Positions 6,920 through 26,296 of a stretch of 32,214 nucleotides of DNA are shown here, piece after piece. Source of the DNA: a virus; IMG/VR virus record IMGVR_UViG_3300036799_000076, positions 1 to 32,214 of that record, one strand, 5' to 3'. Position 1 is the first letter of the stretch. Every line of letters begins with the position of its first letter. A program made the position numbers and the translations under genes. Below the pieces are notes generated by a model that was not told the origin of the DNA, did not search any database, and saw nothing but the letters and a program-made list of their open reading frames with translations.

Positions 6920-7483
6920 ATGGCAGCTCTACCCATCACCCTGATCGGCCAGGCCACGACGGACTCCAGCGGGCAGACCACGTTCATCGGCCTGGCCGTC
7001 GTCACCGGCTTGCAGGTCGGCGGCGGGCCGGCCGAACCGCCGCTCGGCATCTGGGGCGGCCGGCCGCCGCTCTACCCCGACCAAGGCCTGCCAGGGCCAC
7101 AGCCGCGGCCTCCCGGCATCTGGGGCGGCGCGCCGCCATACGTCGACATTGGCGGACCGGGATCGCAGCCTGGTCCCGACCAGGGTCTACCGGGGCCACA
7201 GCCGGGTGGCGGTGCTGGCGCCGGAAACGGCCGTTGGGTTTTCTCGCCGGTCTATGGCTGGGTCTGGGACCCGGGCCAGGGCGGCAAGCCGCAGCCGCCG
7301 AACCCCGGCCAGCCGCCGCGCCCGGGACAAGGGCTCCCGCCCACCTCGCCGCCGCGCCCTGATCAGGGTTTGCCAGGCTCGCAGCCAGGTATCGACCAGG
7401 GCCTGCCGGGCGGACAGCCGGGTATCGACCAGAGCCTGCCGGCGCAGCCGCTCCCTGACCAGACCCATCCCGAGCCGCTCTAA
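6920..7483 (+). CDS. Pro/Gly-rich repeat protein, putative head-associated
   Basis: The 187-residue protein begins with an ordered-looking 30-residue segment (MAALPITLIGQATTDSSGQT). The remainder is built of low-complexity repeats around the core PDQGLPG-QP, seen at least five times, with two GIWGG-PP units. A WVFSPVYGWVWDPGQGG block lies near the middle (about residues 106-122). It should be extended (polyproline-like) rather than globular. Similar PDQGLPG proteins occur in the structural regions of phages of Alphaproteobacteria. Position in the head module suggests a virion surface or assembly protein. GAAGGAGAAG just before ATG 6920 is a good ribosome site. Next comes a hairpin and then the glycosyltransferase cassette. 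Confidence 0.75.
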   Translation: MAALPITLIGQATTDSSGQTTFIGLAVVTGLQVGGGPAEPPLGIWGGRPPLYPDQGLPGPQPRPPGIWGGAPPYVDIGGPGSQPGPDQGLPGPQPGGGAGAGNGRWVFSPVYGWVWDPGQGGKPQPPNPGQPPRPGQGLPPTSPPRPDQGLPGSQPGIDQGLPGGQPGIDQSLPAQPLPDQTHPEPL

Positions 7484-12705: not shown

Positions 12706-13248
12706 ATGGCTGGTGGCGACCCTGCCGCATGCGCGGCGCGGCGGGTGAAGCCCGTCTTCATCTACACACTCGTCGATCCGCGCAACAGCACCGTCTTCTA
12801 CGTCGGCAAGACTGAGAACGCGCTTAAAGTTCGGCTCAGTGGCCATATCTGCGATGCGCGCGCCGGGCGCTCCTCCCATGGCCCGATCACCCGAGCAATC
12901 CTCGCGGCCGGATTGAAGCCGATGATCTACCAGTTGGAGGTTGTCGGGGACGATTGGGCAGCAGCAGAACGGAGATGGATCGCCTACTATCGCGCGGTTG
13001 GGCGTCTAGCCAATCGTGCCGATGGCGGCCAAGGCGGTAGCGGCGGCGGAAGCGGGAATGCCTGGAGAGGCAACACTCAGAGTAGGGAGCATAGTGCGAG
13101 GAAGCGCCTGGCGATGAAGAAGTATCAAGGTCAGCTAAGCATCGATCAAGCGGTGAGATGGCGCGATCCTGAATACCGGGCGAGGCTGATCGGAAGCATG
13201 ACAGGCAGGATGCTTTCCGATCCGCATCAAGAGCGAAACCTGGACTGA
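12706..13248 (+). CDS. GIY-YIG homing endonuclease, free-standing
   Basis: This is a selfish DNA-cutting gene that spreads by copying itself into uninterrupted alleles. The GIY-YIG domain has IYTL (residues 19-22), YVGKT (32-36), Arg43 and the catalytic-type Glu88 in AERRWI. It then has a Gly-rich linker (NRADGGQGGSGGGSG) and a NUMOD3-like DNA-binding segment (SREHSARKRLAMKKY). A basic tail of about 40 residues follows. Family and domain order are clear. It sits between the tail terminator pair and the tail tube gene, where no structural gene of this type belongs. Its codons look richer in A/T than its neighbours'. It probably inserted into the intergenic gap without breaking a gene. Confidence 0.88.
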   Translation: MAGGDPAACAARRVKPVFIYTLVDPRNSTVFYVGKTENALKVRLSGHICDARAGRSSHGPITRAILAAGLKPMIYQLEVVGDDWAAAERRWIAYYRAVGRLANRADGGQGGSGGGSGNAWRGNTQSREHSARKRLAMKKYQGQLSIDQAVRWRDPEYRARLIGSMTGRMLSDPHQERNLD

Positions 13249-13305: not shown

Positions 13306-14547
13306 GTGCCCCTAGCTGAAGGTGTTAGCGCCAGAATTGCCTACAAGCCCTATGCGACCGGCAACATCACGCCGAACGCGCTCGACGATCCGTTGACTGC
13401 GCCCGGCCCGACCGGCGGTCAGTCGCTGCGTCGTGTCAGCAGCACGCTCGGCCTGGCCAAGAATACGTATCAGAGCGCCGAGATCAGAACCGATCGCCAG
13501 ATCGTGGACTTCCGGCACGGCACGCAGCGGGTCGAGGGCAACATCGCGGGCGAACTGTCGCTGGCGACCTACATGGAACTGTTCGAGGCCGTGCACCGCG
13601 ACACGCGCACCCCGGGTTCCACGGTCGATCAGACGACACTGACCAGCATCGCGGCAAGCGCGTCGGCCTCCACCCTGACGTTTGGCGGTGGCGATCCGGT
13701 CGCGGCCGGGCTAACCGCCGGCACGGTGATCCGGGTGACCGGCACGGGGACCGCCAACGACAACAAGAACTTCACCATCATAGCCTTCGGTGGCACCAAC
13801 CACCGGACGGTGACCGTCGATCCGAAACCGGTGGATATGACGACGCCGATCACCACCTTTTCCACTACGGCACCGGGCAGCTCCACGAGCCCGCCCTCGA
13901 GCAACTTCATAAAGCGTAAGTTCGGGTTCGAGGTGTTCCACGACGACCTAAACCTGGCCCGGCTCTACCAGGAGTGTCGCGTCGGCAGCTATCGCCTCGC
14001 TCTGCCGGCCACCGGTATGTCGACAGTGGAGTTCACCGTCATGGGTCGTTCGCAATACAACCCGCCGACCGGTCCCTACTTCACGGCTCCGGCACCGGAG
14101 ACCGGGACGTCGGTGCTCGCCGCGGTCAACGGCAGCCTCTTCTTCGGCTCGCAGAAGATCGGCGTGGCCACGAGCGCTGATCTCACGATGACCCTCACGC
14201 CAACGGCGGCAGAAGTCATCGGCCAGAACTACTCGGCCGAGATTTTCCTCGGCCGGGCCAATATGACCGGCACGGTCACCGCCTTCCTCGACAGCCAAGA
14301 CCTCATCAACGACTTCATCCAGGAGACTGAAGTCTCGATGCTGTTCACGCTCAACGCCTCGAGCGCGGCGAACAGTCCATCGATGACCATCTACCTGCCG
14401 CGTCTGAAGTTCGGCACGGCCGGGGTGAACTTGACCGGCGAGGGCGGCCAATCCGTCTCGCTCAATGTCCAGGCGCTGAAATACGTCGGCTCCGCTCCAG
14501 GCGTGCCGCACACGACCGTGGTCATCCACGACACAGAAGCGGTCTGA
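13306..14547 (+). CDS. Major tail tube protein
   Basis: The 413-residue protein is of the Phage_tube_2-like type. It begins with MPLAEGVSARIAYKPYATGN and contains about 100 residues of an all-beta insert (about residues 105-205: ASASTLTFGGG..., GTVIRVTGTGTANDNKNFTI) that is regularly found in this family. The tube core follows (FEVFHDDLNLARLYQECRVGS, AEVIGQNYSAEIFLGRANMTGTVTAF). The start is GTG 13306 after GGAGACGGAAC. It polymerises around the tape measure to make the tail. The following 100 bases hold two hairpins, then the chaperone genes, which is the usual order. Confidence 0.85.
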   Translation: MPLAEGVSARIAYKPYATGNITPNALDDPLTAPGPTGGQSLRRVSSTLGLAKNTYQSAEIRTDRQIVDFRHGTQRVEGNIAGELSLATYMELFEAVHRDTRTPGSTVDQTTLTSIAASASASTLTFGGGDPVAAGLTAGTVIRVTGTGTANDNKNFTIIAFGGTNHRTVTVDPKPVDMTTPITTFSTTAPGSSTSPPSSNFIKRKFGFEVFHDDLNLARLYQECRVGSYRLALPATGMSTVEFTVMGRSQYNPPTGPYFTAPAPETGTSVLAAVNGSLFFGSQKIGVATSADLTMTLTPTAAEVIGQNYSAEIFLGRANMTGTVTAFLDSQDLINDFIQETEVSMLFTLNASSAANSPSMTIYLPRLKFGTAGVNLTGEGGQSVSLNVQALKYVGSAPGVPHTTVVIHDTEAV

Positions 14548-14648: not shown

Positions 14649-15110
14649 ATGGCTCCGAACAACAAGTTTGCAGGCCTCGCGGTGCCTGAGACGCCCGCGA
14701 GAATGACCGTAATCAGTCCGTGGGATCCGGACCCGATCGTGCGCAGCGATACCGGCGAGGAGTGCTGGATCGAGCTCTACCCGTCGCAGAGCGAGGTCGG
14801 TCGACTTGTCGACCGCAAGCTGCTCGATAAGAACCTGCGCCGCCGCGTGCAGCGCATGAGCGCGAAAGACATCGAGGCGAACGTCGTCGAGAAGCTCGCG
14901 GGCCTCACCAAGGCCTGGTGTCTGGCGATGCCGGACGGAACCCCAATTGACGAACCGTGCACGCCCGAGAATGCGCTCGCCATCTACAGCGACGTGCAAT
15001 GGCTGCGTGACCAAGTCAGCACGTTCGTGAACGACTTGGGAAACTGGCGCCCGACGCTCTCGCAGACCTCATCGACTACGCCGAGTGGGACTTCCGACTC
15101 GGCCGCGTAA
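14649..15110 (+). CDS. Tail assembly chaperone, upstream frame (gpG-like)
   Basis: The 153-residue product of normal translation is the gpG-like tail assembly chaperone. It helps load tube protein on the tape measure. It contains SPWDPDPIVRSDTGEECWIEL, DRKLLDKNLRRRVQRMSAKDIEANVVEK and LAGLTKAWCLAMPDGTPIDEPCTPENA, and lies between tube and tape measure genes where these chaperones are always found. The -1 slippery heptamer GGGAAAC (15038-15044) is in phase at codons 131-132. The last 21 residues of the unshifted product (Ser/Thr-rich) look like read-out of a frame not under selection, which fits an internal shift site. Start ATG 14649. Confidence 0.85.
   Translation: MAPNNKFAGLAVPETPARMTVISPWDPDPIVRSDTGEECWIELYPSQSEVGRLVDRKLLDKNLRRRVQRMSAKDIEANVVEKLAGLTKAWCLAMPDGTPIDEPCTPENALAIYSDVQWLRDQVSTFVNDLGNWRPTLSQTSSTTPSGTSDSAA
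15038..15044 (+). promoter_or_regulatory. Programmed -1 frameshift site G GGA AAC
   Basis: The heptamer lies in the zero frame as TTG GGA AAC (15036-15044), exactly X XXY YYZ. The lambda G/T site is GGGAAAG, one base different. After a -1 slip, translation continues CTG GCG CCC GAC in the frame that encodes the T-like domain. A perfect seven-base stem, GCCGAGT (15080-15086) with ACTCGGC (15097-15103), lies 36 bases downstream. That is farther than is usual for a stimulator, so its involvement is doubtful. Confidence 0.85.
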
Positions 15111-15469
15111 CCGCCGATGGCCAAGCCACCGCGCGGGAGGTTCTCGAAAGCGTCGAACGGCAAACCGGCCGACGCCCGCCTGATCTTGACGGTCCCGAGC
15201 CACCCCTGGAACTCGCCTATCTCTGGGAGTGGTTCCAGGACCTGCACGTCGCGCGGAGCTCGAATGGCTGGGGGCCGAACCCGATCACCTACAATGACAT
15301 CGCTGCCTGGGCCGGTCTTACCGGTATCACTCTTCGTGTGCCTGAGGTTCGGACGATCCTGATGCTCGATCGTCTCTGGCTCATCTCGCACCACGAGGGC
15401 AGCAAGGCCCGGCAGGACTGGGCGGAACAGCAGCGACGTCAACAATCGGGGCGCGCGCATGGACGTTGA
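15044..15469 (+). CDS. Tail assembly chaperone, frameshift extension (gpT-like)
   Basis: This frame has no usable start codon: it opens after a stop at 15008-15010 and its first ATG/GTG codons are deep inside the domain. It adds 141 residues to the upstream product, making a 273-residue GT-type fusion when the ribosome slips at 15038-15044. Its sequence is the typical tail chaperone second domain: ADLIDYAEWDFRLGR, PPLELAYLWEWFQDLH, SNGWGPNPITYNDIAAWAGL and VRTILMLDRLW. It ends at TGA 15467-15469, overlapping the tape measure start (15459) by 11 bases. The unbroken frame and strong pattern make this a real coding segment. Confidence 0.87.
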   Translation: MAPDALADLIDYAEWDFRLGRVTADGQATAREVLESVERQTGRRPPDLDGPEPPLELAYLWEWFQDLHVARSSNGWGPNPITYNDIAAWAGLTGITLRVPEVRTILMLDRLWLISHHEGSKARQDWAEQQRRQQSGRAHGR

Positions 15470-18400
15470 AAAGCGAACGACGATCGTCGCTGGCCTGAAC
15501 GCGGAGCCCATGAAGCAGGGCTTGCGCGAGATCGCGAGCGAGGCGGCGAAGACCACGGCCCAGATGACGCAGAGCACGGCGCAGATGGGCCGTGCCTTGC
15601 TCGACGCGAGCAAGGGCTTCGACGCCCTGGCGAAGAAGTGGGTCGACGGCTACCGGGACGCCATCAACTACGCCCAGGCCTATCAGACCGTACAGCGGGC
15701 GCTGGGCGAGGGCCGCGACAAGCTCGGCGTCATCCCAGGCATCCTGGACAATATCGAACGCAGCTACGGGCTGGTCGGCAATGCGGCCCGGCAGGCGGCC
15801 GCGGCTATGGCCGATAGCAGCAAGAGCGCCGAGGAGCGGCTACGCGCCTTGCAAGCGCTAATCCTGCAGATGCGGCAGCCGGCGCAGGAGATCGCACGCG
15901 GGCCCGACCTCTCCGGGCTGCGCATGCTGGGAGACACCGCACGGCGGGCGCGGCTCGGGGCCGATCCTGGCGAGCAGCGCGCCATCGCCCAGCAGATCGC
16001 CGATGTGCAGGGGACGGCGAACCAGTTCGCAGCCTCCTCGCGTGGCGGCTGGGCGCAGGCCAACAAGGATGCCGCAGAAAGCGCCGCCGTCCTGACCGCC
16101 GAACTGGACAGGCAGCGTGCAGCAATCGATCCGCTCTTCGCCGCCTCCAAGCGCTACGAAGAGGAGCTTGGCAGGATCGACGAGGCCGAGAGGCTTTTGG
16201 TGGTCACGCGCGAGCGCGGGGCCGCGCTGCGCGAGCAGGCCACCCAGCAATTCGCCGCCCGCAACGCGCCTGCGCTGCCCCAGACCGAGAACTTCGAGAA
16301 GCTGCGCGCCAGCATCGATCCGGTCTACGCGGCCTCGAAGAAATACGAGGAGGAACTCAACAAGATCAACGAGGTCTCGGCCAAGCTCGGCCTGACCCAA
16401 ACCCAGACGGCCGCCCTGACCAGTCAAGCCACCCAGCGCTTCGCGGCGGCCAACCAGCCACTCGGCGAGCACGGGCGGCTCATCGGCCAGGTCGTTGGCG
16501 CGAACGGGCAACTCCAGTTCGTCATGCGGCAGTTGGGCGTCCAGGCGATCCAGACGTTCCAAGGGTTCGCCACCGGCCAGCCGATCATGATGACCCTGAT
16601 CCAGCAGGGGCATCAGGTGGCTGACGTGATGCTCGCGTCCGGCGTGAGCATCCGGACGCTGGGCAGCCAAGTCCTGGCGTTTGCGACGCGCATTCTCGCC
16701 AATCCGTTCGCTGCTGTCATCGCTGGTGCCGCCGCCTTCGCGACTGCAATCGTGGCGCTCGGCGTGCATGCCGAACACACGGCCTCGCGCATTGCGACCA
16801 TGGGCGTTCAGCTTCGCGCGACGCGGACTGATAGCCGGGGTGCGGCAGAGCAGATCGAACGCGTTGCCCGCCATCTCGGGCAAACGACCACTCTCGGCAC
16901 GGGTGAGGCCCGCGACGCGGCAAGGGCTCTCGGGCCACAATTTCGCGGGTCGGACGCGGAAGTCGAGCGCATGGTCAAGACGGCCAAAGATCTCGATGCC
17001 GTCTTCGGCAAGTCGGGCGAAGGTGCGAAGCATCTCGCCGAAGCGATGAAGGAACCGGCCAAGGTCGCCAAGCAGCTCGCCGACGAAGGCTGGCCCGGCA
17101 TGAGCCAAGCGCTCGCCGAAGCAATCCGCATCCAGGAAATGGCGGGCGACAAGGCTGGCGCATTTGCCCGGGCGCTGGCGGTCATGGAGCAGCACGCAAA
17201 GGGCGCGCGTGAAGCCGGTATGGGGCCGCTGCAGAAGGCGCTGGCCGATCTCGACAAGACGCTGGCTTCGGTCTTTGGGGTGAACGGTCGCAGCTTCATC
17301 GAGTGGCTCGGCAACGGCATCATCAAGGCCGCCTCGAAAGCGGTCGAGGGCTTGGACTGGGTGATCAGGAAGCTGCAAGCTTTGGACGAGCTTGTCGGCG
17401 CCGCGAAATATGAACATGCCGGCGAAGTCATGGGCAAGCAGCTTGGCGGCGACGTCGGCAAGCAAATCCGGGACATGGCCACCGCGAAGCAGATGTCGGA
17501 ACAACAGACGAAGCTAGCGCTGGCGATCGCCCAACAGGAATCCGGCGGGCTGCAGATCGATCCCAAGACGGGCAAGACGCTCACGAGTGGCGCGGGCGCG
17601 ATGGGTGTCATGGGGCTGATGCCTGGGACGGCGCGGGATCTCAAAGTCGATCCGCACAACGCGACGCAGAATATCCAAGGCGGGCTCGATTACATCCAGC
17701 AACTGTGGAAGAAGTACGGTGGCGATCCGGCCCTGGTCGCGATGGCGTACAACTGGGGCCCTGGCAATCTCGACAAGTGGCTCCAGAGCGGCAAGACGCT
17801 GTCGACAGTCCCGGCCGAGACGCAGAAATACGTCAAAGCTGTCGTAGGCAGCGACCTCGATCCGGCCAGAGCGGTCGAAACCCAGCGCAAGACCGCCCAG
17901 GAGACGCTCGATCTGGCCGAAAAGCAGTGGCAGGCGACGCGCGGCCAGCTTGAGACAAGGATCAAGGAGAACCAGGCGCAACAGGAGGCGCAGCGCAGGG
18001 CGCTCGAGGCCGCGCAAGCGACGGGTGACACCCAGGCGGCCCGGAAGGCGCAGGAGACGCTTGAGCACCTCAAGATCACCTCTTCCGACCTTATCACGGA
18101 GCAGCAGAAGCTGGCCCGTAGCTACCAAGACGCCTTGACCCCGCTCGCTGCCCAGGCTGGCGCCGCGCGCGAACTCGCGGAAATCAGGCAGCGCATGGTG
18201 GAGACGGCGCGCTCCGAGGGCCGCCAGGTCGACGAGGCAGCCGTGGCGGCGGCGCAGACGGCCAGGCTGAGGGAGCTCAACGTGCAGCTCGACGATCACG
18301 TCGAGCGGACCCGGCGCGACACCTATGCCGTCGTCCAACAAGGGAAGGCGATCCGCGATGGCGCCCTCGCTATGGAGATGGAAGCCAACAAGGCGAGAGC

Positions 18401-20249
18401 GCGGGAAGAGGTTCTCACACGGGTGCCGGCAACGGACCCCAACTTCAAGGCTGAGGTCGACCGGCTGACTGAGGCATATAACGAGCAGGCCCAGGCCCGC
18501 GCGCGCAACGCGGCCCAAATCGACATCGAAAAGTACGAACGCGAGATCGACGCACAGAACAAGGTCACGGCCTCGGTGAAGGACGGCGCCCTGGCCAGGC
18601 AGCTCGTGGCCAACGCCCATCAGGCGGAGGAAGAGGCGCGGCAGAGATTTGTTGTCGGCTCCCGCGAATATGTCGAGTTCGTCGCACGAGAGACGAAGGC
18701 GCTGAACGACCGCACCGTCGCGGCGCAGCAGACCAACAATGCCGTGGACCTCCGCGAGCTGCAGAAGCAAGTCGATCTGCAGAAAGAGTTGGCGACAGCG
18801 ACCAAGGATGGCGCTCTGGCCCAGGAGTTGGCGAACAACGCGATCCGGGCGCGCCAGGAGGCGACCGAGAAGACGCTGCAGGGCGCGGAGCGGGAGCGCT
18901 ACATCCTCGAGCAGACCAAAGCGCTCAACGACGCCTCGATCCAGCGATACAAGAACCAGACCGATACCGAGGTCGCCGAGACCGAGCGCCGAACCCAGGC
19001 GCAGAGGGATTTGCTGAAAGCGACTGAGGAAGGCGGCTTCGCGGCCCAGCACGCCGCCAACGTGGCCCGCGCCACCGAGACGGCCTTCCAGGCGACGAAG
19101 CCTGGTGAGGATCGCGCGGCGACGATCGAGCGCATCACCAAGGCGCTGGACGCGGAGACGCGTGCGGCCAACGACAACCAAGCCGCACAAGACATCAACG
19201 CCTTCAGGCAGCGGAACGAACAGCTCGAGCTAGAAGCCAAGCTGATCGGCGCATCGACTGAGGAGATCAATCGCCAGACCGCTGCCCTGCGAGAGCGGCA
19301 GAGGTTCGGACTGAAGCCCGGCGACACGGCGTCCCCTGAGCAGCAGCGCGCTATCGACGCGTCAAAACGAACTGCCGACACGGAAAGCAACGTGCAGCGG
19401 CAAAAGGCCGCCTACCAGGAGTTGGAAAACTTCGGCTCTCAGGTCTTCAACACGCTGGGCGATGCCATGGCGGGGAGCTTCAAGAAAGGTGCCGACGCGG
19501 CGCAAATCTGGCGCGATGCCATCGGCAACGTGGTCCAGGAAGTCATCAAAGAATTCATCAAGTTGGCCATCCTCAACCCGCTGCTCAACAGCATCTTCGG
19601 CGGCAACCGCCCGGTGCTGGGCGACGTGGTGAACCGCGTTTTCGACAGCAAGGGCGGCGAAGGCGCCGGAACCAGCGGCGGCAGTGGCAGCGGCGCCGGC
19701 GGTGCGGCGGGCAGCACGATCGGGACGACCGACATCTTTGGCAAGGCGGTCAACTGGGTCGGCGGCCAAGGCTTCTATGAGCATGGCGGCCTGATTGGCT
19801 CCATGTTCGGCAGCGGCGGCGGTGGTGCCAGCACCTATGGCTTCTCGACCACCGGCATCAATGCGGGGCTGGACCCGAACACTGGGCTATTCTCCGGTGG
19901 CAGCACCTATCACAGCGGCGGCCTGGTGGGCGTTGATGCCGTGCCCGTGCGCATGGTCAGCGGCGGCATCTTCGACCACGCGCCGCACTTCCAGTCCGGC
20001 CTGGGCGGGAACGAGTTTGCCGCCATCCTGCACCGCTCCGAGCGCGTGCTCACCTCCAACCAAAACGATCGGCTCGAACACGTGCTCGGCCGGGTGGCGG
20101 GCGGCGAGACTGGAGGCGGCCGCGGCGGCGGCAACGTCGTCTTCAACATCACGACGCCCGACGCGGACAGCTTCAGGGCCAGCCAGTCGCAGATCCAGAA
20201 CCGCGCCGTCGCCGCCCTGAACCGGTCGCAGCAGCGGAACCGGACCTGA
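15459..20249 (+). CDS. Tail tape measure protein with transglycosylase-like domain
   Basis: The 1596-residue protein sets tail length, is ejected with the DNA and probably helps it cross the cell wall. Residues 1-200 are helical. The TMP_2-like segment follows (FVMRQLGVQAIQTFQGFATGQPIMMTLIQQG), then a hydrophobic stretch at about 405-440. About residues 675-785 form a soluble lytic transglycosylase-like domain: AIAQQESGG with Glu694 as the likely catalytic acid, AMGVMGLMPGTA, and MAYNWGPGNLDKWL. Long coiled coils and four 75-residue repeats occupy about 945-1245. The C-terminus has the lambda gpH-like IWRDAIGNVVQEVIKEFIKLAILNPL then a Gly/Ser-rich tail. At about 0.15 nm per residue, the tail would be roughly 240 nm long (rule of thumb, not measured). 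Confidence 0.95.
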   Translation: MDVEKRTTIVAGLNAEPMKQGLREIASEAAKTTAQMTQSTAQMGRALLDASKGFDALAKKWVDGYRDAINYAQAYQTVQRALGEGRDKLGVIPGILDNIERSYGLVGNAARQAAAAMADSSKSAEERLRALQALILQMRQPAQEIARGPDLSGLRMLGDTARRARLGADPGEQRAIAQQIADVQGTANQFAASSRGGWAQANKDAAESAAVLTAELDRQRAAIDPLFAASKRYEEELGRIDEAERLLVVTRERGAALREQATQQFAARNAPALPQTENFEKLRASIDPVYAASKKYEEELNKINEVSAKLGLTQTQTAALTSQATQRFAAANQPLGEHGRLIGQVVGANGQLQFVMRQLGVQAIQTFQGFATGQPIMMTLIQQGHQVADVMLASGVSIRTLGSQVLAFATRILANPFAAVIAGAAAFATAIVALGVHAEHTASRIATMGVQLRATRTDSRGAAEQIERVARHLGQTTTLGTGEARDAARALGPQFRGSDAEVERMVKTAKDLDAVFGKSGEGAKHLAEAMKEPAKVAKQLADEGWPGMSQALAEAIRIQEMAGDKAGAFARALAVMEQHAKGAREAGMGPLQKALADLDKTLASVFGVNGRSFIEWLGNGIIKAASKAVEGLDWVIRKLQALDELVGAAKYEHAGEVMGKQLGGDVGKQIRDMATAKQMSEQQTKLALAIAQQESGGLQIDPKTGKTLTSGAGAMGVMGLMPGTARDLKVDPHNATQNIQGGLDYIQQLWKKYGGDPALVAMAYNWGPGNLDKWLQSGKTLSTVPAETQKYVKAVVGSDLDPARAVETQRKTAQETLDLAEKQWQATRGQLETRIKENQAQQEAQRRALEAAQATGDTQAARKAQETLEHLKITSSDLITEQQKLARSYQDALTPLAAQAGAARELAEIRQRMVETARSEGRQVDEAAVAAAQTARLRELNVQLDDHVERTRRDTYAVVQQGKAIRDGALAMEMEANKARAREEVLTRVPATDPNFKAEVDRLTEAYNEQAQARARNAAQIDIEKYEREIDAQNKVTASVKDGALARQLVANAHQAEEEARQRFVVGSREYVEFVARETKALNDRTVAAQQTNNAVDLRELQKQVDLQKELATATKDGALAQELANNAIRARQEATEKTLQGAERERYILEQTKALNDASIQRYKNQTDTEVAETERRTQAQRDLLKATEEGGFAAQHAANVARATETAFQATKPGEDRAATIERITKALDAETRAANDNQAAQDINAFRQRNEQLELEAKLIGASTEEINRQTAALRERQRFGLKPGDTASPEQQRAIDASKRTADTESNVQRQKAAYQELENFGSQVFNTLGDAMAGSFKKGADAAQIWRDAIGNVVQEVIKEFIKLAILNPLLNSIFGGNRPVLGDVVNRVFDSKGGEGAGTSGGSGSGAGGAAGSTIGTTDIFGKAVNWVGGQGFYEHGGLIGSMFGSGGGGASTYGFSTTGINAGLDPNTGLFSGGSTYHSGGLVGVDAVPVRMVSGGIFDHAPHFQSGLGGNEFAAILHRSERVLTSNQNDRLEHVLGRVAGGETGGGRGGGNVVFNITTPDADSFRASQSQIQNRAVAALNRSQQRNRT
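16125..16500 (+). repeat. Two 63-residue tandem repeats in the tape measure
   Basis: Two copies run IDPLFAASKRYEEELGRIDE and IDPVYAASKKYEEELNKINE. Each continues to a QATQ(Q/R)FAA element. The Asp of each IDP falls at residues 224 and 287, exactly 63 residues (189 bases) apart. The repeats lie in the helical N-terminal half and look like an internal duplication that lengthened the coiled coil. Confidence 0.8.
18303..19197 (+). repeat. Four tandem repeats of about 75 residues in the tape measure
   Basis: The landmark (D/E)G(A/G)(L/F)A recurs at 18357 (DGALAMEMEANKAR), 18582 (DGALARQLVANAHQ), 18807 (DGALAQELANNAIR) and 19029 (EGGFAAQHAANVAR). The spacings are 225, 225 and 222 bases, that is 75, 75 and 74 residues. 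Each copy has a helix with Ala/Glu/Arg, an acidic or Arg middle and a conserved (T/V)xA(L/Y)(D/N) element near its end (ALNDRT, ALNDAS, ALDAET). This is a tandem duplication in the rod part of the tape measure. Confidence 0.85.
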
Positions 20250-20253
20250 AAGC

Positions 20254-20898
20254 ATGGTCGCCTTTCACGAGATTCAGTTCCCGCCGTCGATCAGCATGGG
20301 CGCGGTCGGCGGGCCCCGCTTCTCGACCACCGTCACCACGCTCTCGGGCGGCACCGAGCAGCGCAACATCAACTGGAAGCAGGCGCGCGGCGAATGGGAC
20401 GTGAGCCACGGGCTGAAGACGGAGGAGCAGGCCGATCAGCTCCTTGCCTTCTTCCACGCGAGGAATGGCAAGGCATATGGCTTTCGGTTCAAGGATTGGA
20501 GCGACTACCGCCTGCCGAGGTGGGACGACGTGCCAGGGGACGTGATGCCGATCCCAGTGATGTTCACGACGGACAACACGACCAAGGTCATCCAGATCGT
20601 GAAGGTCTACGGCGACACCGCCGGGTTCTATGTCCGGCCGATCACCAAGCCGGTCGCCGGCACCGTGCAGATGCTCAACAACGGCGTGCAGACCTTCAAC
20701 TTCACGGTCGATAACACCACCGGGCTGATCACGCTCGGCTCCGGGCTGTGGAACACCACAGGCCACACCATCGCCGTGGTGTGCGAGTTCGACGTGCCCT
20801 GCCGCTTCGACACCGACGAGATGAAGCTGACGACGACGATGGTCGATAACTTCTCGTGGTCTTCGATCCCGGTGGTGGAAACGCGGGAAATCAAGTGA
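20254..20898 (+). CDS. DUF2460 distal tail protein (GTA gp12-like)
   Basis: The 214-residue protein has the DUF2460 signature MVAFHEIQFPPSISMGAVGGPRF at its start. In the middle it has the typical QLLAFFHARNGKAYGFRFKDWSDYR, and it ends FDVPCRFDTDEM...WSSIPVVETRE. The family includes the RcGTA distal tail (Dit-like) protein that caps the tube at the baseplate end. ATG 20254 is four bases after the tape measure stop. The stop overlaps the next start GTG 20895. High confidence by signature and gene order. Confidence 0.93.
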   Translation: MVAFHEIQFPPSISMGAVGGPRFSTTVTTLSGGTEQRNINWKQARGEWDVSHGLKTEEQADQLLAFFHARNGKAYGFRFKDWSDYRLPRWDDVPGDVMPIPVMFTTDNTTKVIQIVKVYGDTAGFYVRPITKPVAGTVQMLNNGVQTFNFTVDNTTGLITLGSGLWNTTGHTIAVVCEFDVPCRFDTDEMKLTTTMVDNFSWSSIPVVETREIK

Positions 20899-22232
20899 AG
20901 ACGATCACGCCGCAACTGCGCACGCATCTCGCGCAGCCGGTTACCACCCTCGCGACGTGCTGGCTGCTCGAACGGACCGACGGCACGACGTACGCCTTCA
21001 CCTCGTTCGACGAGGATCTCGTGATCGGCGGCGTCACCTATCTGTCCACGGCAGGCTTCACTCGATCGGCGGTCCAGACGGGCTCAACCGGCGAGGTCGA
21101 CAATCTCGATGTCGTCGGCTTCTTCCAGGACGACGCCATCACCGAGCGCGACCTCAAGAACGGCCTGTTCGACTACGCCAGCATCCACCTGTTCGCCGTC
21201 AACTGGGCGAACCTGAGCCAGGGCATCTGCAAGCTGCGGCGCGGCTGGCTCGGCGAATGCACGCTCACGCCCGCAGGGATCTTCAAGGCGGAACTGCGCG
21301 GCATGACGCAGGCGCTCGTGCAGGAGTTCGGCGCCGACTACATGCCGATCTGCCGCGCCGACCTCGGCGACAGCAAGTGCAAGGTGCCCATCAAGCCGAG
21401 CGCCTGGTCGCACAACACGCCCATTGCGCAGGGCAGCTTCATGCAGGCAGCCACACGGCCGGACGATGCCATGCAGGTTGCGATCTTCGAGGCGCAGAAC
21501 TCAGGCACGACGGGATCGACGGAACCGGCCTGGGACCCTGCGATCGGAGCGACCACGACCGATCACGACATCTCCTGGGTCTCCAAGCCCTACTGGCGCG
21601 GCATCTTCAGCGTTGCCTCGGTGATCAACCAGCGCGAATTCGTCAGCTCGCTCTCCGTCCCGGCGGCGCCGAGCACCACCTCGAACACGGGATCGGTGAG
21701 CTTTCGGCTAAACGTCAGCGCGAACACCACGATCACCGTCTCCGATGGCGTGGTCAGCCACGGCTTCACCATCCCGATCGACGCCAAGCCTGAGGACGTG
21801 CTGGAATACTTCTATCCCGCCATGGCCTCCTACACCGACTGGAGCATGGCGGTCACCTATTCAGGCGCCACCGTCTATTTCACCAACACCTCCGGCCAGC
21901 CCGGCAGCATCACCAAGATCGGCGATACGCTACGGGGCATCATCATCCAGGACTTCCAGAGTGCAGCGTTCGACGGCGGCACTGTAACTTGGATCGACGG
22001 CGACAACGCTGGCACCAGCATGGAGATCAAGGCCTACGACACCGGCTCCAGCACGGTCGTGCTGTGGCTGCGATCGAAGTTTCCGATTGCCGTCGGCGAT
22101 CGCTTCTTCGCCTACCCTGGCTGCGACAAGCGGCGCGATACCTGCGTGAACATCTTCAACAACATTCTGAACTTCCGCGGTGAGCCGGACATGCCGATGA
22201 TGGACAAGGTGCTCAGCTATCCGGACGCATGA
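20895..22232 (+). CDS. DUF2163 / BR0599-family baseplate hub protein with an insert
   Basis: The GTG at 20895 (overlapping the upstream TGA) gives 445 residues. The N-terminal part (LRTHLAQPVTTLATCWLLERTDG, then FTRSAVQTGSTGEVDNLDVVGF) and the C-terminal GCDKRRDTCVNIFNNILNFRGEP are the standard DUF2163/BR0599 ends, the latter with its two conserved Cys. These families are usually about 270-300 residues and are the hub adaptor of GTA-like tails (gp13). Here an insert of about 150 residues, strand-rich and Ser/Thr-rich (about residues 225-370), separates them. It may be an extra surface-exposed domain. The ATGA overlap at 22229 joins it to the peptidase. Confidence 0.9.
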   Translation: MKTITPQLRTHLAQPVTTLATCWLLERTDGTTYAFTSFDEDLVIGGVTYLSTAGFTRSAVQTGSTGEVDNLDVVGFFQDDAITERDLKNGLFDYASIHLFAVNWANLSQGICKLRRGWLGECTLTPAGIFKAELRGMTQALVQEFGADYMPICRADLGDSKCKVPIKPSAWSHNTPIAQGSFMQAATRPDDAMQVAIFEAQNSGTTGSTEPAWDPAIGATTTDHDISWVSKPYWRGIFSVASVINQREFVSSLSVPAAPSTTSNTGSVSFRLNVSANTTITVSDGVVSHGFTIPIDAKPEDVLEYFYPAMASYTDWSMAVTYSGATVYFTNTSGQPGSITKIGDTLRGIIIQDFQSAAFDGGTVTWIDGDNAGTSMEIKAYDTGSSTVVLWLRSKFPIAVGDRFFAYPGCDKRRDTCVNIFNNILNFRGEPDMPMMDKVLSYPDA

Positions 22233-22660
22233 CGCGCGAGGAGGTGCAGCAGGAGGCCCGCAAATGGCTCGGGGTCCCCTTTCGCAAGCGTGGCCGCTCG
22301 GAGGACGGCGTCGACTGCATTGGCTTTATCGTGGTCGTGGGGCGCGCCTTCAGCATTCCGCACCAGGACGAAAGCGACTACTCGCTCTGGCCGGCGCAAG
22401 ACCACCTCATCCTGCGCAAGCTGGGGCAGTATCTGGTGCGACTTTCGCCCGACACCTCGCTGCCTGGCACGGTCGGCGTGTTCGCGGAGCGGCGCCTGCC
22501 CGGCCATGTCGGGATCTTTAGTGAGAAATACGGCGGGGCGGTGCATCTCATCCACGCCCGCATATCGCCCGGCCGGGTTATCGAGGAGCCTTGGCAGCAT
22601 GTCCCGTATCACGAACTGCGGCTGATCGGCCTTTTCGGCTTCCCTGGGTTGGAGCTCTAG
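22229..22660 (+). CDS. NlpC/P60 cysteine peptidase, tail-tip (GTA gp14-like)
   Basis: The 143-residue protein is the cell-wall peptidase associated with the tail tip that cleaves peptidoglycan stem peptides during DNA entry. The catalytic Cys30 is in GVDCIGF and the His93 is in GHVGIF. The N-terminal helix segment (VQQEARKWLGVPFRKRGRS) and C-terminal WQHVPYHELRLIGLFGFPG fit GTA gp14 proteins. It starts at ATG 22229, overlapping the hub gene. Gene order DUF2460, DUF2163, NlpC/P60, tip is the GTA order. Confidence 0.93.
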   Translation: MTREEVQQEARKWLGVPFRKRGRSEDGVDCIGFIVVVGRAFSIPHQDESDYSLWPAQDHLILRKLGQYLVRLSPDTSLPGTVGVFAERRLPGHVGIFSEKYGGAVHLIHARISPGRVIEEPWQHVPYHELRLIGLFGFPGLEL

Positions 22661-22663
22661 ACG

Positions 22664-25600
22664 ATGGGTCAGCAGGCAGCCGGTCTCGCCTTCATGCTCG
22701 GCGGGAAGGTGATCGGCTCGTACTTCGGCGGGCCTATTGGCGGTGCGGTCGGTGCCCTGGCGGGCGGCCTCATCGCCTCGTTCATCTTCAACCGCTCCAG
22801 CAAGCCGCTGGTCCCCGATACGCAGCTCACGTCCTCGAGCTACGGGCACTTTATCCCGATCATCTACGGCCAATGTCGGTTGCCGGCGACGGTGATCTGG
22901 GAGACCGACATTGAGACGCAGTCGCATAACGGCATCAGCAGTTTCCTCGGCAAGGGGTCGTCGGCCACTAGCTACAAGCAGAACGCCGCCTTCGCGTTCT
23001 GCCAAGGGCCGGCGCGGCTGCTGAAGGTGTGGCTCGACGGCAAGCTGTGGCTGGACGTCACTTCGGCCACGCCGGTCACGCCGCAGAGCTACTACTTTCC
23101 CATCCGCGGCTATAACGGCGACGAATTTCAGCTTCCCGATCCGCTGATCGCGCAATGGGTGTCGCTCTACGTCAGTTCGCCAACGTCCTGCCCAGCCTAT
23201 CGCGGCCTCGCCTACCTCGTGTTCCAGGACGTGGATCTGTCGCACTACGGCAACCGCATGCCGAACGTGACTGCGGCCTGGACGACGAGTTGGGAAGACA
23301 AGGTCATCACCCGCCAGCTCATGCGGTTTGCGGGCGACGTTTCGCCAAGTGGCGTCTGGATCCAGGGCGTCGCAACCGATTGGCTGAGCAACCGCGTCTA
23401 TCAGATGAAGAGCGACGGCAGGCTACGCGTTTTCGACATCAATAACGGCTCTGCCGTCGCGTCGGTGACGATGGAGCAGATGCTGGAGGCGATCCCGGAA
23501 GTTGATCAGCCGTTTCGCATTGGCGCGCTTGCATCCATCGCTGTGACCCCAGGCAGCCAGTACGTTTACATCGGCGGCATGGATGCTGGCTATAATCCGA
23601 CCCTTCTGGCCGTCGACACCGGCTCAATGCGAGTGGCCTATAGCCGACCGCTGTGGAACTCAACCTCGATCTGGGACAATGACTTCCCCGCCCACATGGT
23701 GCCGTTTCAGATCCAGTCGGCCGATACTGGCCTGCAGGATATGCTGCTGATCGGCACCTACAACTGGGAAGGTTGGTACATCGTCAATCCCGACACCGGC
23801 GTCAATTCGGGCATTCTGCCGACGCACTACAATGGAGGCTATCCGGGCGGGTATTCCTCAGACGCCATCGTCGGCAAACAGGACGTGACCGCCGGCACGG
23901 TCGACTTGTGGATAGTCCAAAACACGCCGGGCATTTTCGGGCCGGATGACCCGGCCGACGATTTTCTCTACATCCACAAGGTCACGGTCGATAGCGACAA
24001 CCCCTCCACTATCGCGGCCTTGGGAATGTGCCAAGAAGTCGGCAGGATCGCGCCGACCGATCTCGGCCTGACCCCAGGTATTCCTGGGTTCCATTTTTGG
24101 TCGAGCGTTAATGTCGTCTACGACCCGTCCGATGACTCTCTCATTATCACAGCGCCCGTCACCTCAGTTGCTGGGAGCACCCTCAAATGGAAGGAAGATG
24201 TGGGCGTCGTGTGGCTCCAGCCAGACCAAGTGGCGGTGTCATGGGGGACCCTAACCACATACTACCAGCTTGATGCAGGCCTCACGGGAGCGGCCAACGG
24301 CGGCGGTAACGACTACTGGGTGACGCAAAGCATCGACGGTCAGCAATCACCGCTCTATCACACAAGCGGCCCCTCGGTCTCGCCCGACGGGGTCTGGGCG
24401 TATTCCAGCGCCCTCAACGCCATGGTGATCGACGAATACGGCCGCGACGAAATGTGGGTCATCTACCTGCAGCGCGCGGCCGCGGGCGAAGTGCCGGTCG
24501 GCGATATCCTGCGCGATCTCTGCCTGCGGGCCGGACTGACCGACGCGGACATCGACGTGACCCAGGTGACCGCGAGCTGCGTCGGCTACGCCATCACCGA
24601 GGAAAAGAGCTACGGCGCCGCCATTATGGACCTGTGCCACTCGTACCAGATCGACATGACGGAGAGCGATTATAAGCTGAAATTCGTGCAGCGCGGCGCC
24701 GGGCCGATCGCCACTATCACCCAGGCCGATCTGACCTCGTCCAACAACAGCGATCCAGGCAACTTCTGGGAGACGAAGCGGGCCATCGAGCAGGAACTGC
24801 CGATGCAGATCAATCTTCGCTATGCGGACGTCGATCTCGATTACCAGCCGGGCGCGAGCTATTCCAAGCGCATCGCCAACCCGGTCGCGACGACCTTCAG
24901 CCGGCGCGTGAAAAGCGTCGACCTTCCGGTCGTGGCGCACAACGCCGAAGCACGGCACATCGCCGAAGTCTGGCTCTATACGATGTGGGCGGAGCGCGAC
25001 ACCTACCGAACCAAGACGGCGCAGAAGTACCTGTGGCTCGATCCGACCGACAATGTCACGGTCGCCTTCGACAGCGGCGACCAGATCACCACGCGCATTC
25101 AGACGACCGAACTCGGCGACGATTTCTCGATGGCGCTCGACCTCTGCGCGGAGGACATCGAGACCTTCGTCACCTCGAACTCGCCACCAGCGCTGATCTC
25201 CTACCAGCCGCAGGTCATTAAGCAATCCGGCTTCATCGACCTGCTGCAATTCAACACGCCGCTGCTGCAGGATAGCGACGACACCGGCGGCGGCGAGATG
25301 CGGATCTACTATGCCGGCGGCCCGAACGCGGCGGTCTCGTCCTCCACGGTCGCGGTGCTCTACCAGAGCCTGGATGGCACCTCCTGGCCTGCCTTTGCGC
25401 AGACGTCGGCGTTCGCGGACTGGGGCCGAGCGACCAATGTGCTGGGCGACACCGTGGCGGCCTTCGCGACGGACTACGTCAACAGCCTCACCTATTTCCC
25501 GACCGCAGGCTCGGCCACGCCAGCGAGCTGCACGTATCTCGAGATGATGAACGGCGCCAACCCGGCGCTCGTCGGGCGCGAGATCATCCAATACCAACTC

Positions 25601-26296
25601 GCGGCGCGGAACGCCGATGGCTCCTACACCCTGAGCACGCTACTGCGCGGCCGGCGCGGCACCGAATGGGCCTGCGGCGGGCATGTGCTGGGCGAACTCG
25701 TGGTGCTGCTCGAGATGGGCAAGATCCAGGTGGGCAGGCTGCCGCTGAGCCAGCGTGGGCAGACATCGCTGTGGAAGCTCGTGCCGACCGGGCGCTTCAT
25801 CGACAGCACGCCAGCGGACAGTTTCGCCTATCGCGCCTTCGACCTGATGCCGTACGCGCCGGTCAACGCCAAGCGACAGGTGAGCGGCGCCAACCTGCTG
25901 CTGACGTGGGTCCGGCGCACGCGCCTCGGCGGCTTGCAGGTGGACGGCACCGATACCGCGCCGCTCGGCGAGGAGCATGAGGAATACGAAGTCTATCTGC
26001 TCGACAGCCCGTCCGACCTGGCGCACTTCGATCCGGCAAACCCGACCACCTATCGCCGGGCGTTCCTGGCGCTGACGACGTCGAGCTTGACCTACACAGC
26101 GGCGCAGATGGCGAGTGATGGCTTCGACATGGCCGCCGATCCGCTCTGCGCGGTGATTTATCAAATCTCGGCTGTGGTGGGCCGGGGCTTTCCTGGCTTC
26201 CACGAGCTTGAGCCTCCAGGTGGTGGCCTCTCGGTTGGGCTGGAGGACGACATCGGCTCGTGGGCCACGGTAGGCGGCGCATGGCTATGGGGATGA
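22664..26296 (+). CDS. Tail tip / central hub protein (GTA gp15-like) with a propeller-like insert
   Basis: The 1210-residue protein begins with a Gly-zipper helix (GKVIGSYFGGPIGGAVGALAG, about residues 14-34). The usual tip module follows (GHFIPIIYGQ, then CQGPARLLKVWLDGKLW). At about 177-203 CPAYRGLAYLVFQDVDLSHYG fits the family pattern. At about 215-595 a segment of blade-like strands (WIQGVATDWLSNRVYQMKSDG, VYIGGMDAGYNPTLLAVDTG) breaks the normal layout. A hub domain starts near residue 605 (VPVGDILRDLCLRAGL), and a conserved LLRGRRGTEWACG lies near residue 985, a tip-family motif. It is the likely base of the fibres and of host contact. Identity firm, propeller fold inferred. Confidence 0.88.
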   Translation: MGQQAAGLAFMLGGKVIGSYFGGPIGGAVGALAGGLIASFIFNRSSKPLVPDTQLTSSSYGHFIPIIYGQCRLPATVIWETDIETQSHNGISSFLGKGSSATSYKQNAAFAFCQGPARLLKVWLDGKLWLDVTSATPVTPQSYYFPIRGYNGDEFQLPDPLIAQWVSLYVSSPTSCPAYRGLAYLVFQDVDLSHYGNRMPNVTAAWTTSWEDKVITRQLMRFAGDVSPSGVWIQGVATDWLSNRVYQMKSDGRLRVFDINNGSAVASVTMEQMLEAIPEVDQPFRIGALASIAVTPGSQYVYIGGMDAGYNPTLLAVDTGSMRVAYSRPLWNSTSIWDNDFPAHMVPFQIQSADTGLQDMLLIGTYNWEGWYIVNPDTGVNSGILPTHYNGGYPGGYSSDAIVGKQDVTAGTVDLWIVQNTPGIFGPDDPADDFLYIHKVTVDSDNPSTIAALGMCQEVGRIAPTDLGLTPGIPGFHFWSSVNVVYDPSDDSLIITAPVTSVAGSTLKWKEDVGVVWLQPDQVAVSWGTLTTYYQLDAGLTGAANGGGNDYWVTQSIDGQQSPLYHTSGPSVSPDGVWAYSSALNAMVIDEYGRDEMWVIYLQRAAAGEVPVGDILRDLCLRAGLTDADIDVTQVTASCVGYAITEEKSYGAAIMDLCHSYQIDMTESDYKLKFVQRGAGPIATITQADLTSSNNSDPGNFWETKRAIEQELPMQINLRYADVDLDYQPGASYSKRIANPVATTFSRRVKSVDLPVVAHNAEARHIAEVWLYTMWAERDTYRTKTAQKYLWLDPTDNVTVAFDSGDQITTRIQTTELGDDFSMALDLCAEDIETFVTSNSPPALISYQPQVIKQSGFIDLLQFNTPLLQDSDDTGGGEMRIYYAGGPNAAVSSSTVAVLYQSLDGTSWPAFAQTSAFADWGRATNVLGDTVAAFATDYVNSLTYFPTAGSATPASCTYLEMMNGANPALVGREIIQYQLAARNADGSYTLSTLLRGRRGTEWACGGHVLGELVVLLEMGKIQVGRLPLSQRGQTSLWKLVPTGRFIDSTPADSFAYRAFDLMPYAPVNAKRQVSGANLLLTWVRRTRLGGLQVDGTDTAPLGEEHEEYEVYLLDSPSDLAHFDPANPTTYRRAFLALTTSSLTYTAAQMASDGFDMAADPLCAVIYQISAVVGRGFPGFHELEPPGGGLSVGLEDDIGSWATVGGAWLWG

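Follow-up and report, generated by a model that had tools for sequence, protein, structure and literature searches.

The window, which is the whole 32,214 nt of an IMG/VR virus record, almost certainly carries the two tail assembly chaperone frames of a long-tailed phage, predicted from their sequence to be expressed as lambda G/G-T is, by a -1 frameshift. The case adds one more phage, represented solely by environmental sequence, to known biology and introduces no new principle; the original prediction was right to describe it as confirmation rather than novelty.

The tail genes of this stretch, all on the plus strand, read tube, chaperone, tape measure. A tail tube protein gene (13306-14547; PF18906 Phage_tube_2, E 9.7e-25; phrog_290) lies upstream of the zero-frame tail assembly chaperone ORF, which is gpG-like and spans 14649-15110 (153 aa). 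The -1 frame is open from stop to stop at 15011-15469, sharing 15011-15110 with the zero frame; its T-like extension occupies 15044-15469 and overlaps by 11 nt the start of the downstream tape measure protein gene (15459-20249; PF06791 TMP_2, E 1.5e-14), which includes an SLT transglycosylase domain (PF01464 SLT, E 6.4e-17). Just upstream of the tube gene, a homing endonuclease-like ORF with a GIY-YIG domain is found at 12706-13248 (PF01541, E 7.4e-5; phrog_314, E 3.4e-7). Past the tape measure gene, 20254-26296 holds a gene-transfer-agent-like tail tip module with a Rcc01695-family distal tail protein, a phiJL001 Gp84-like hub and a Rcc01698-like protein.

The chaperone ORF contains a single in-phase G_GGA_AAC, at 15038-15044 on the plus strand, in the context ttG GGA AAC tgg: the first G is 15038, and the zero-frame codons are GGA (15039-15041) and AAC (15042-15044), in the exact phase that had been claimed for it. 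The heptamer is separated from the zero-frame stop by 63 nt. The -1 frame has exactly 141 sense codons from 15044 to 15466, the number originally given, followed by TGA at 15467-15469, and the predicted translation reproduces the expected junction peptide, VNDLGN|LAPDA. Both frames and the site that would join them are read directly from the DNA. The further claim that the second frame lacks its own start codon is true of any product that includes the entire domain, though not literally: GTG at 15338 (codon 99 of 141) and ATG at 15362 are the only ATG, GTG or TTG codons in the -1 frame, and a check for an independent start found none before codon 99. In lambda the gene order is likewise tube, chaperone, tape measure, and the slippery heptamer is GGGAAAG. 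The likeness to lambda G/G-T described here is one of arrangement and consists of the gene order, an in-phase XXXYYYZ close to where the short ORF ends, and the -1 extension, whereas the window heptamer ends in C and that of lambda in G.

The T-like domain that had been recognised by eye proves to be PF23812 Phage_TAC_18. The T frame aligns with this profile from position 1 to position 78 of its 79 (E 6e-18), scoring 65.2 bits where the curated cut-off is 27, and each of the 18 aligned T domains matches the profile too. The match covers T residues 37-113; no difference was found within the domain, to which the window protein adds 36 residues before and 28 after. Among PHROGs, the best match of the T frame is phrog_4966 (E 6e-16), a family of unknown function, with weaker matches to phrog_3817, tail chaperonin (E 9.7e-6), and phrog_8233, tail assembly chaperone (E 0.0044). 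The zero-frame protein matches phrog_313, Tail assembly chaperone (E 3.2e-6), and so does every one of the 17 G proteins that were aligned (best E 2.6e-27). No Pfam family was found for the zero-frame protein, and NCBIfam gave no meaningful match for either frame.

The AlphaFold2 model of the T part is all-helical (mean pLDDT 90.6), and that of G is a mixed domain (mean pLDDT 77.0) in which residues 135-153 fall below 50. Beyond the slip site G ends in a tail that is rich in Ser and Thr and predicted to be disordered, and that is read only when no slip takes place. Foldseek searches of the two models against the PDB returned nothing meaningful (best E 0.72 and 0.84). In BFVD the top-scoring matches of the G model are unnamed or uncharacterized, and the model also resembles tape measure chaperone models from Escherichia phage Seurat (E 4.3e-4) and the Caulobacter phages Sansa (6.2e-4) and CcrColossus (7.4e-4).

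Selection was assessed on one sequence pair, the only close relative of the window being L001 (IMG/VR 3300036799_000108), a 69,648-nt contig whose T is 72% identical to that of the window. Purifying selection is observed in both frames: dN/dS is 0.08 over the 132 zero-frame codons before the slip and 0.162 over the 117 codons of the -1-only part. For the ungapped T block (108 codons), dN/dS is 0.139 when it is read in the T frame; the two alternative frames give 1.29 and 3.10 and contain stops. The overlap gives 1.02 in the zero frame and 0.53 in the -1 frame, values that carry no weight, as each comes from only about 21 codons. When substitutions are sorted by codon position, the best breakpoint for a change of frame falls at 15046 (15015-15076 lie within two log units), and the model with a breakpoint is 21 lnL units better than that with no change. 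The phase of the substitutions therefore puts the frame switch on the heptamer, independently of the sequence of the heptamer itself.

Relatives had to be gathered mainly through T because searches with the zero-frame protein gave few or no matches (none at E 1e-5 in phage records and only three loci in IMG/VR). From a first set of 16 phage records nine were taken (H1, H2, H3, H5, H6, H8, H13, H15 and H16), leaving out H4 and H9, which are RefSeq copies of H3 and H8, and H7, H10, H11, H12 and H14, which score the same or nearly the same as those taken; a second set of 81 supplied seven new ones, picked for their different hosts. Removal of T-region duplicates (L009, L024, L026, L027, L030, L031 and L033), with the window (L008) counted once, left 28 loci, to which eight later ones were added without a duplicate check against the 28, for a total of 36. 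Several of these loci are close kin of one another, so that they do not represent 36 independent events.

The arrangement is conserved among these relatives. T occupies the -1 frame at 34 of the 36 distinct loci, window included, and 32 of the 36, again with the window, carry an in-phase XXX(AAA/TTT)Z within the overlap; for 10 rows the overlap searched was longer than 150 nt, and there a chance heptamer is likelier. TTTTTTC is the commonest site; GGGAAAC or GGGAAAG is found in the window, L001, L012, L013 and L043, and both L001 and L012, the latter being Pasteurella phage Pm86, have a -1 frame that opens just 3 nt upstream of GGGAAAC. Weak matches to T are seen in L034 and L035 (domain E 4e-12 and 5e-12), where the heptamer is more than 100 nt away from the matched stretch. 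The loci with no in-phase XXX(AAA/TTT)Z are L014, L017, L036 and L037; L017 and L036 place T in the +1 or -2 frame, the other two in the -1 frame with some other kind of site. Roseobacter phage CRP-6 (L014:1974-1998), with no in-phase XXXYYYZ, reads GTG GAT TTT ACG, offering at best a single T_TTT slip, and Serratia phage Serbin (L037:1459-1576) has CGA AAG TTC TTT near the junction, which may hold an A_AAG site.

Could T be a separate gene, translated from an internal start or by re-initiation after the zero-frame stop, beginning at GTG 15338, at ATG 15362 or at some non-standard codon? Both of these codons are indeed present in the -1 frame, and annotators have placed a start inside T in 12 of the 15 annotated phage regions among the relatives (a sixteenth phage record has no annotation and is outside this count). 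The remaining three regions (L012, L017 and L041) omit T and none of the 15 has a joined G-T fusion CDS, much as the original prediction expected of standard annotation. However, the first available start in the window lies inside the PF23812 match, near its end, and amino-acid conservation of the -1 frame begins just past the heptamer, well upstream of any start. The start codons of the relatives, moreover, vary or are absent, whereas the slip site keeps its place at the border of the domain. I therefore regard a separate T gene as very improbable.

Even less probable is that the two frames are one gene split by an indel of assembly or sequencing, or a gene in decay. A frame break like this one can be an artefact, and the source is an IMG/VR virus record, but L001, a separate record, has the same break with the same GGGAAAC at the same place and a zero-frame tail of equal length (21 codons) to the stop; purifying selection on both frames also argues against it, and I count it as refuted by a -1 arrangement that recurs in 34 of 36 loci. 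A frame change through slippage of RNA polymerase rather than of the ribosome, conceivable in the many relatives with T6 or T7 runs at the junction, is just as hard to credit, since the window, L001, L012, L013 and L043 have GGGAAAC or GGGAAAG and no run longer than 3.

Ribosomal frameshifting at the heptamer is the reading followed here, and its separate lines of evidence differ in weight. In 20,000 codon shuffles of the zero-frame ORF, an in-phase XXX(AAA/TTT)Z arose somewhere in the overlap in 2.7%, and a member of a list of efficient heptamers in 1.6%. Across the 21 main ORFs listed for the window (9,351 codons) only three in-phase XXX(AAA/TTT)Z occur. The other two, GGGAAAT at 20885-20891, near the start of ORF 20856-22232, and GGGTTTG at 7366-7372, in ORF 6920-7483, are probably chance occurrences. 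Openness of the -1 frame was considered as stand-alone evidence and rejected: it is weak by itself because the -1 frames of other genes in the window have open stretches of up to 316 codons. The evidential weight lies in the domain match and the selection signature.

The RNA downstream is a point against this reading. In the 50 nt after the heptamer no stimulatory structure was found, 199 of 200 shuffles folding at least as well (z +1.90), and none stands out in the 80 nt after it (z -1.27 for the window, -0.74 for L001); Rfam has no match in the window. A stem, GCCGAGU/ACUCGGC, can be drawn at 15080-15103, 35 nt past the heptamer, and L001, where a U-A pair replaces one C-G pair, can fold it too. 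The 80-nt stretches that contain it are matched in folding by 21 and 48 of 200 shuffles, which is not significant, and the stem is too far away for a usual stimulator and is not claimed as one.

From the frames, the site and the comparison with lambda, I infer that frameshifting occurs at this locus. Most ribosomes would translate 14649-15110 into the short chaperone. In a minority, the tRNAs on GGA AAC would slip back by one base and re-pair with GGG AAA, after which reading would resume at CTG 15044 and end at the stop at 15469. The predicted fusion of about 273 aa would consist of 132 residues through VNDLGN and 141 from LAPDA. If the products act as those of lambda do, the short form would coat the product of the next gene, the tape measure protein, the fusion would recruit through its T domain the tube protein from the gene before, and neither would stay in the virion. 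For lambda, PMC5009743, which cites Levin 1993 and Xu 2004, states that G binds the tape measure protein and T the tail tube protein, that both depart before the tail is finished, and that the short product exceeds the frameshift product by about 30 to 1. It also states that in E. coli heptamers ending in AAG are highly shift-prone and that A_AAA_AAC shifts far less than A_AAA_AAG (PMC5009743). By analogy, GGGAAAC would be weaker than the AAG-ending heptamers, these rates being those of E. coli, which may not be those of the host.

Sites with the same letters have been described. GGGAAAC is predicted for gp18/gp19 of Burkholderia phage KL1, the same gene pair (PMC3483164), and for the pre-tape measure chaperone of Caulobacter phage Colossus (PMC3556154), and PMC5009743 lists G_GGA_AAC for the haloarchaeal virus HCTV-1. 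The window locus is therefore a known kind of system. Colossus and KL1 share with the window both the heptamer and the role of the gene, and the CcrColossus protein is among those that the G model resembles in BFVD. KL1 differs in that its site stands directly before the zero-frame stop, where the window has the intervening 63 nt, and in that an extra gene precedes its tape measure gene, which in the window follows directly.

A sister clade places T in another frame. In eight distinct loci T falls in the +1 or -2 frame, and TTT CGA occurs a short way ahead of the zero-frame stop: L017 (junction L017:1979-2008), L036 (junction L036:1482-1511; the same as L044 in T), L046 (the same as L047), L048, L049, L050, L051 and L052. 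Two of the eight are Limnohabitans phage DC31 and Curvibacter phage P26059A, and the other six are environmental loci. A further locus, L059, has TTT CGT at the junction and T likewise in the +1 or -2 frame. The 16 loci found with a query from this clade were kept separate from the 36 above; the remaining seven of them (L045 and L053-L058) have T in the -1 frame. L045 is 66% identical in T to L036, the query, and has A_AAT_TTT at the corresponding Asn-Phe, in a phase read by eye from the printed codons.

I lean towards the view that the direction of frameshifting has switched at a fixed residue within this chaperone family, being +1 at TTT_CGA and -1 at A_AAT_TTT and joining the frames after the same Asn-Phe in both; a -2 slip may be an alternative to +1 at the TTT CGA loci. 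Switching of direction as such is already known, because the coat protein gene of Listeria phages is shifted by -1 in some and by +1 in others and HSTV-2 likely uses +1, according to PMC5009743. A limited literature search, which leaves prior publication possible, found no paper on a UUU CGA frameshift in a tail assembly chaperone and, for a forward frameshift with tape measure and chaperone, only PRFect.

For the window, these results fill in the annotation of one tail gene, which automatic callers would skip or cut short, and the gap is a general one, T being missed or truncated in all 15 annotated regions of its relatives. For the family, a change of direction, if true, would mean that the fusion product was kept while the recoding rule was replaced. 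Such a switch between -1 and +1 at a single junction would be relevant to the evolution of recoding sites in cases where the fusion protein and the ratio are all that counts.
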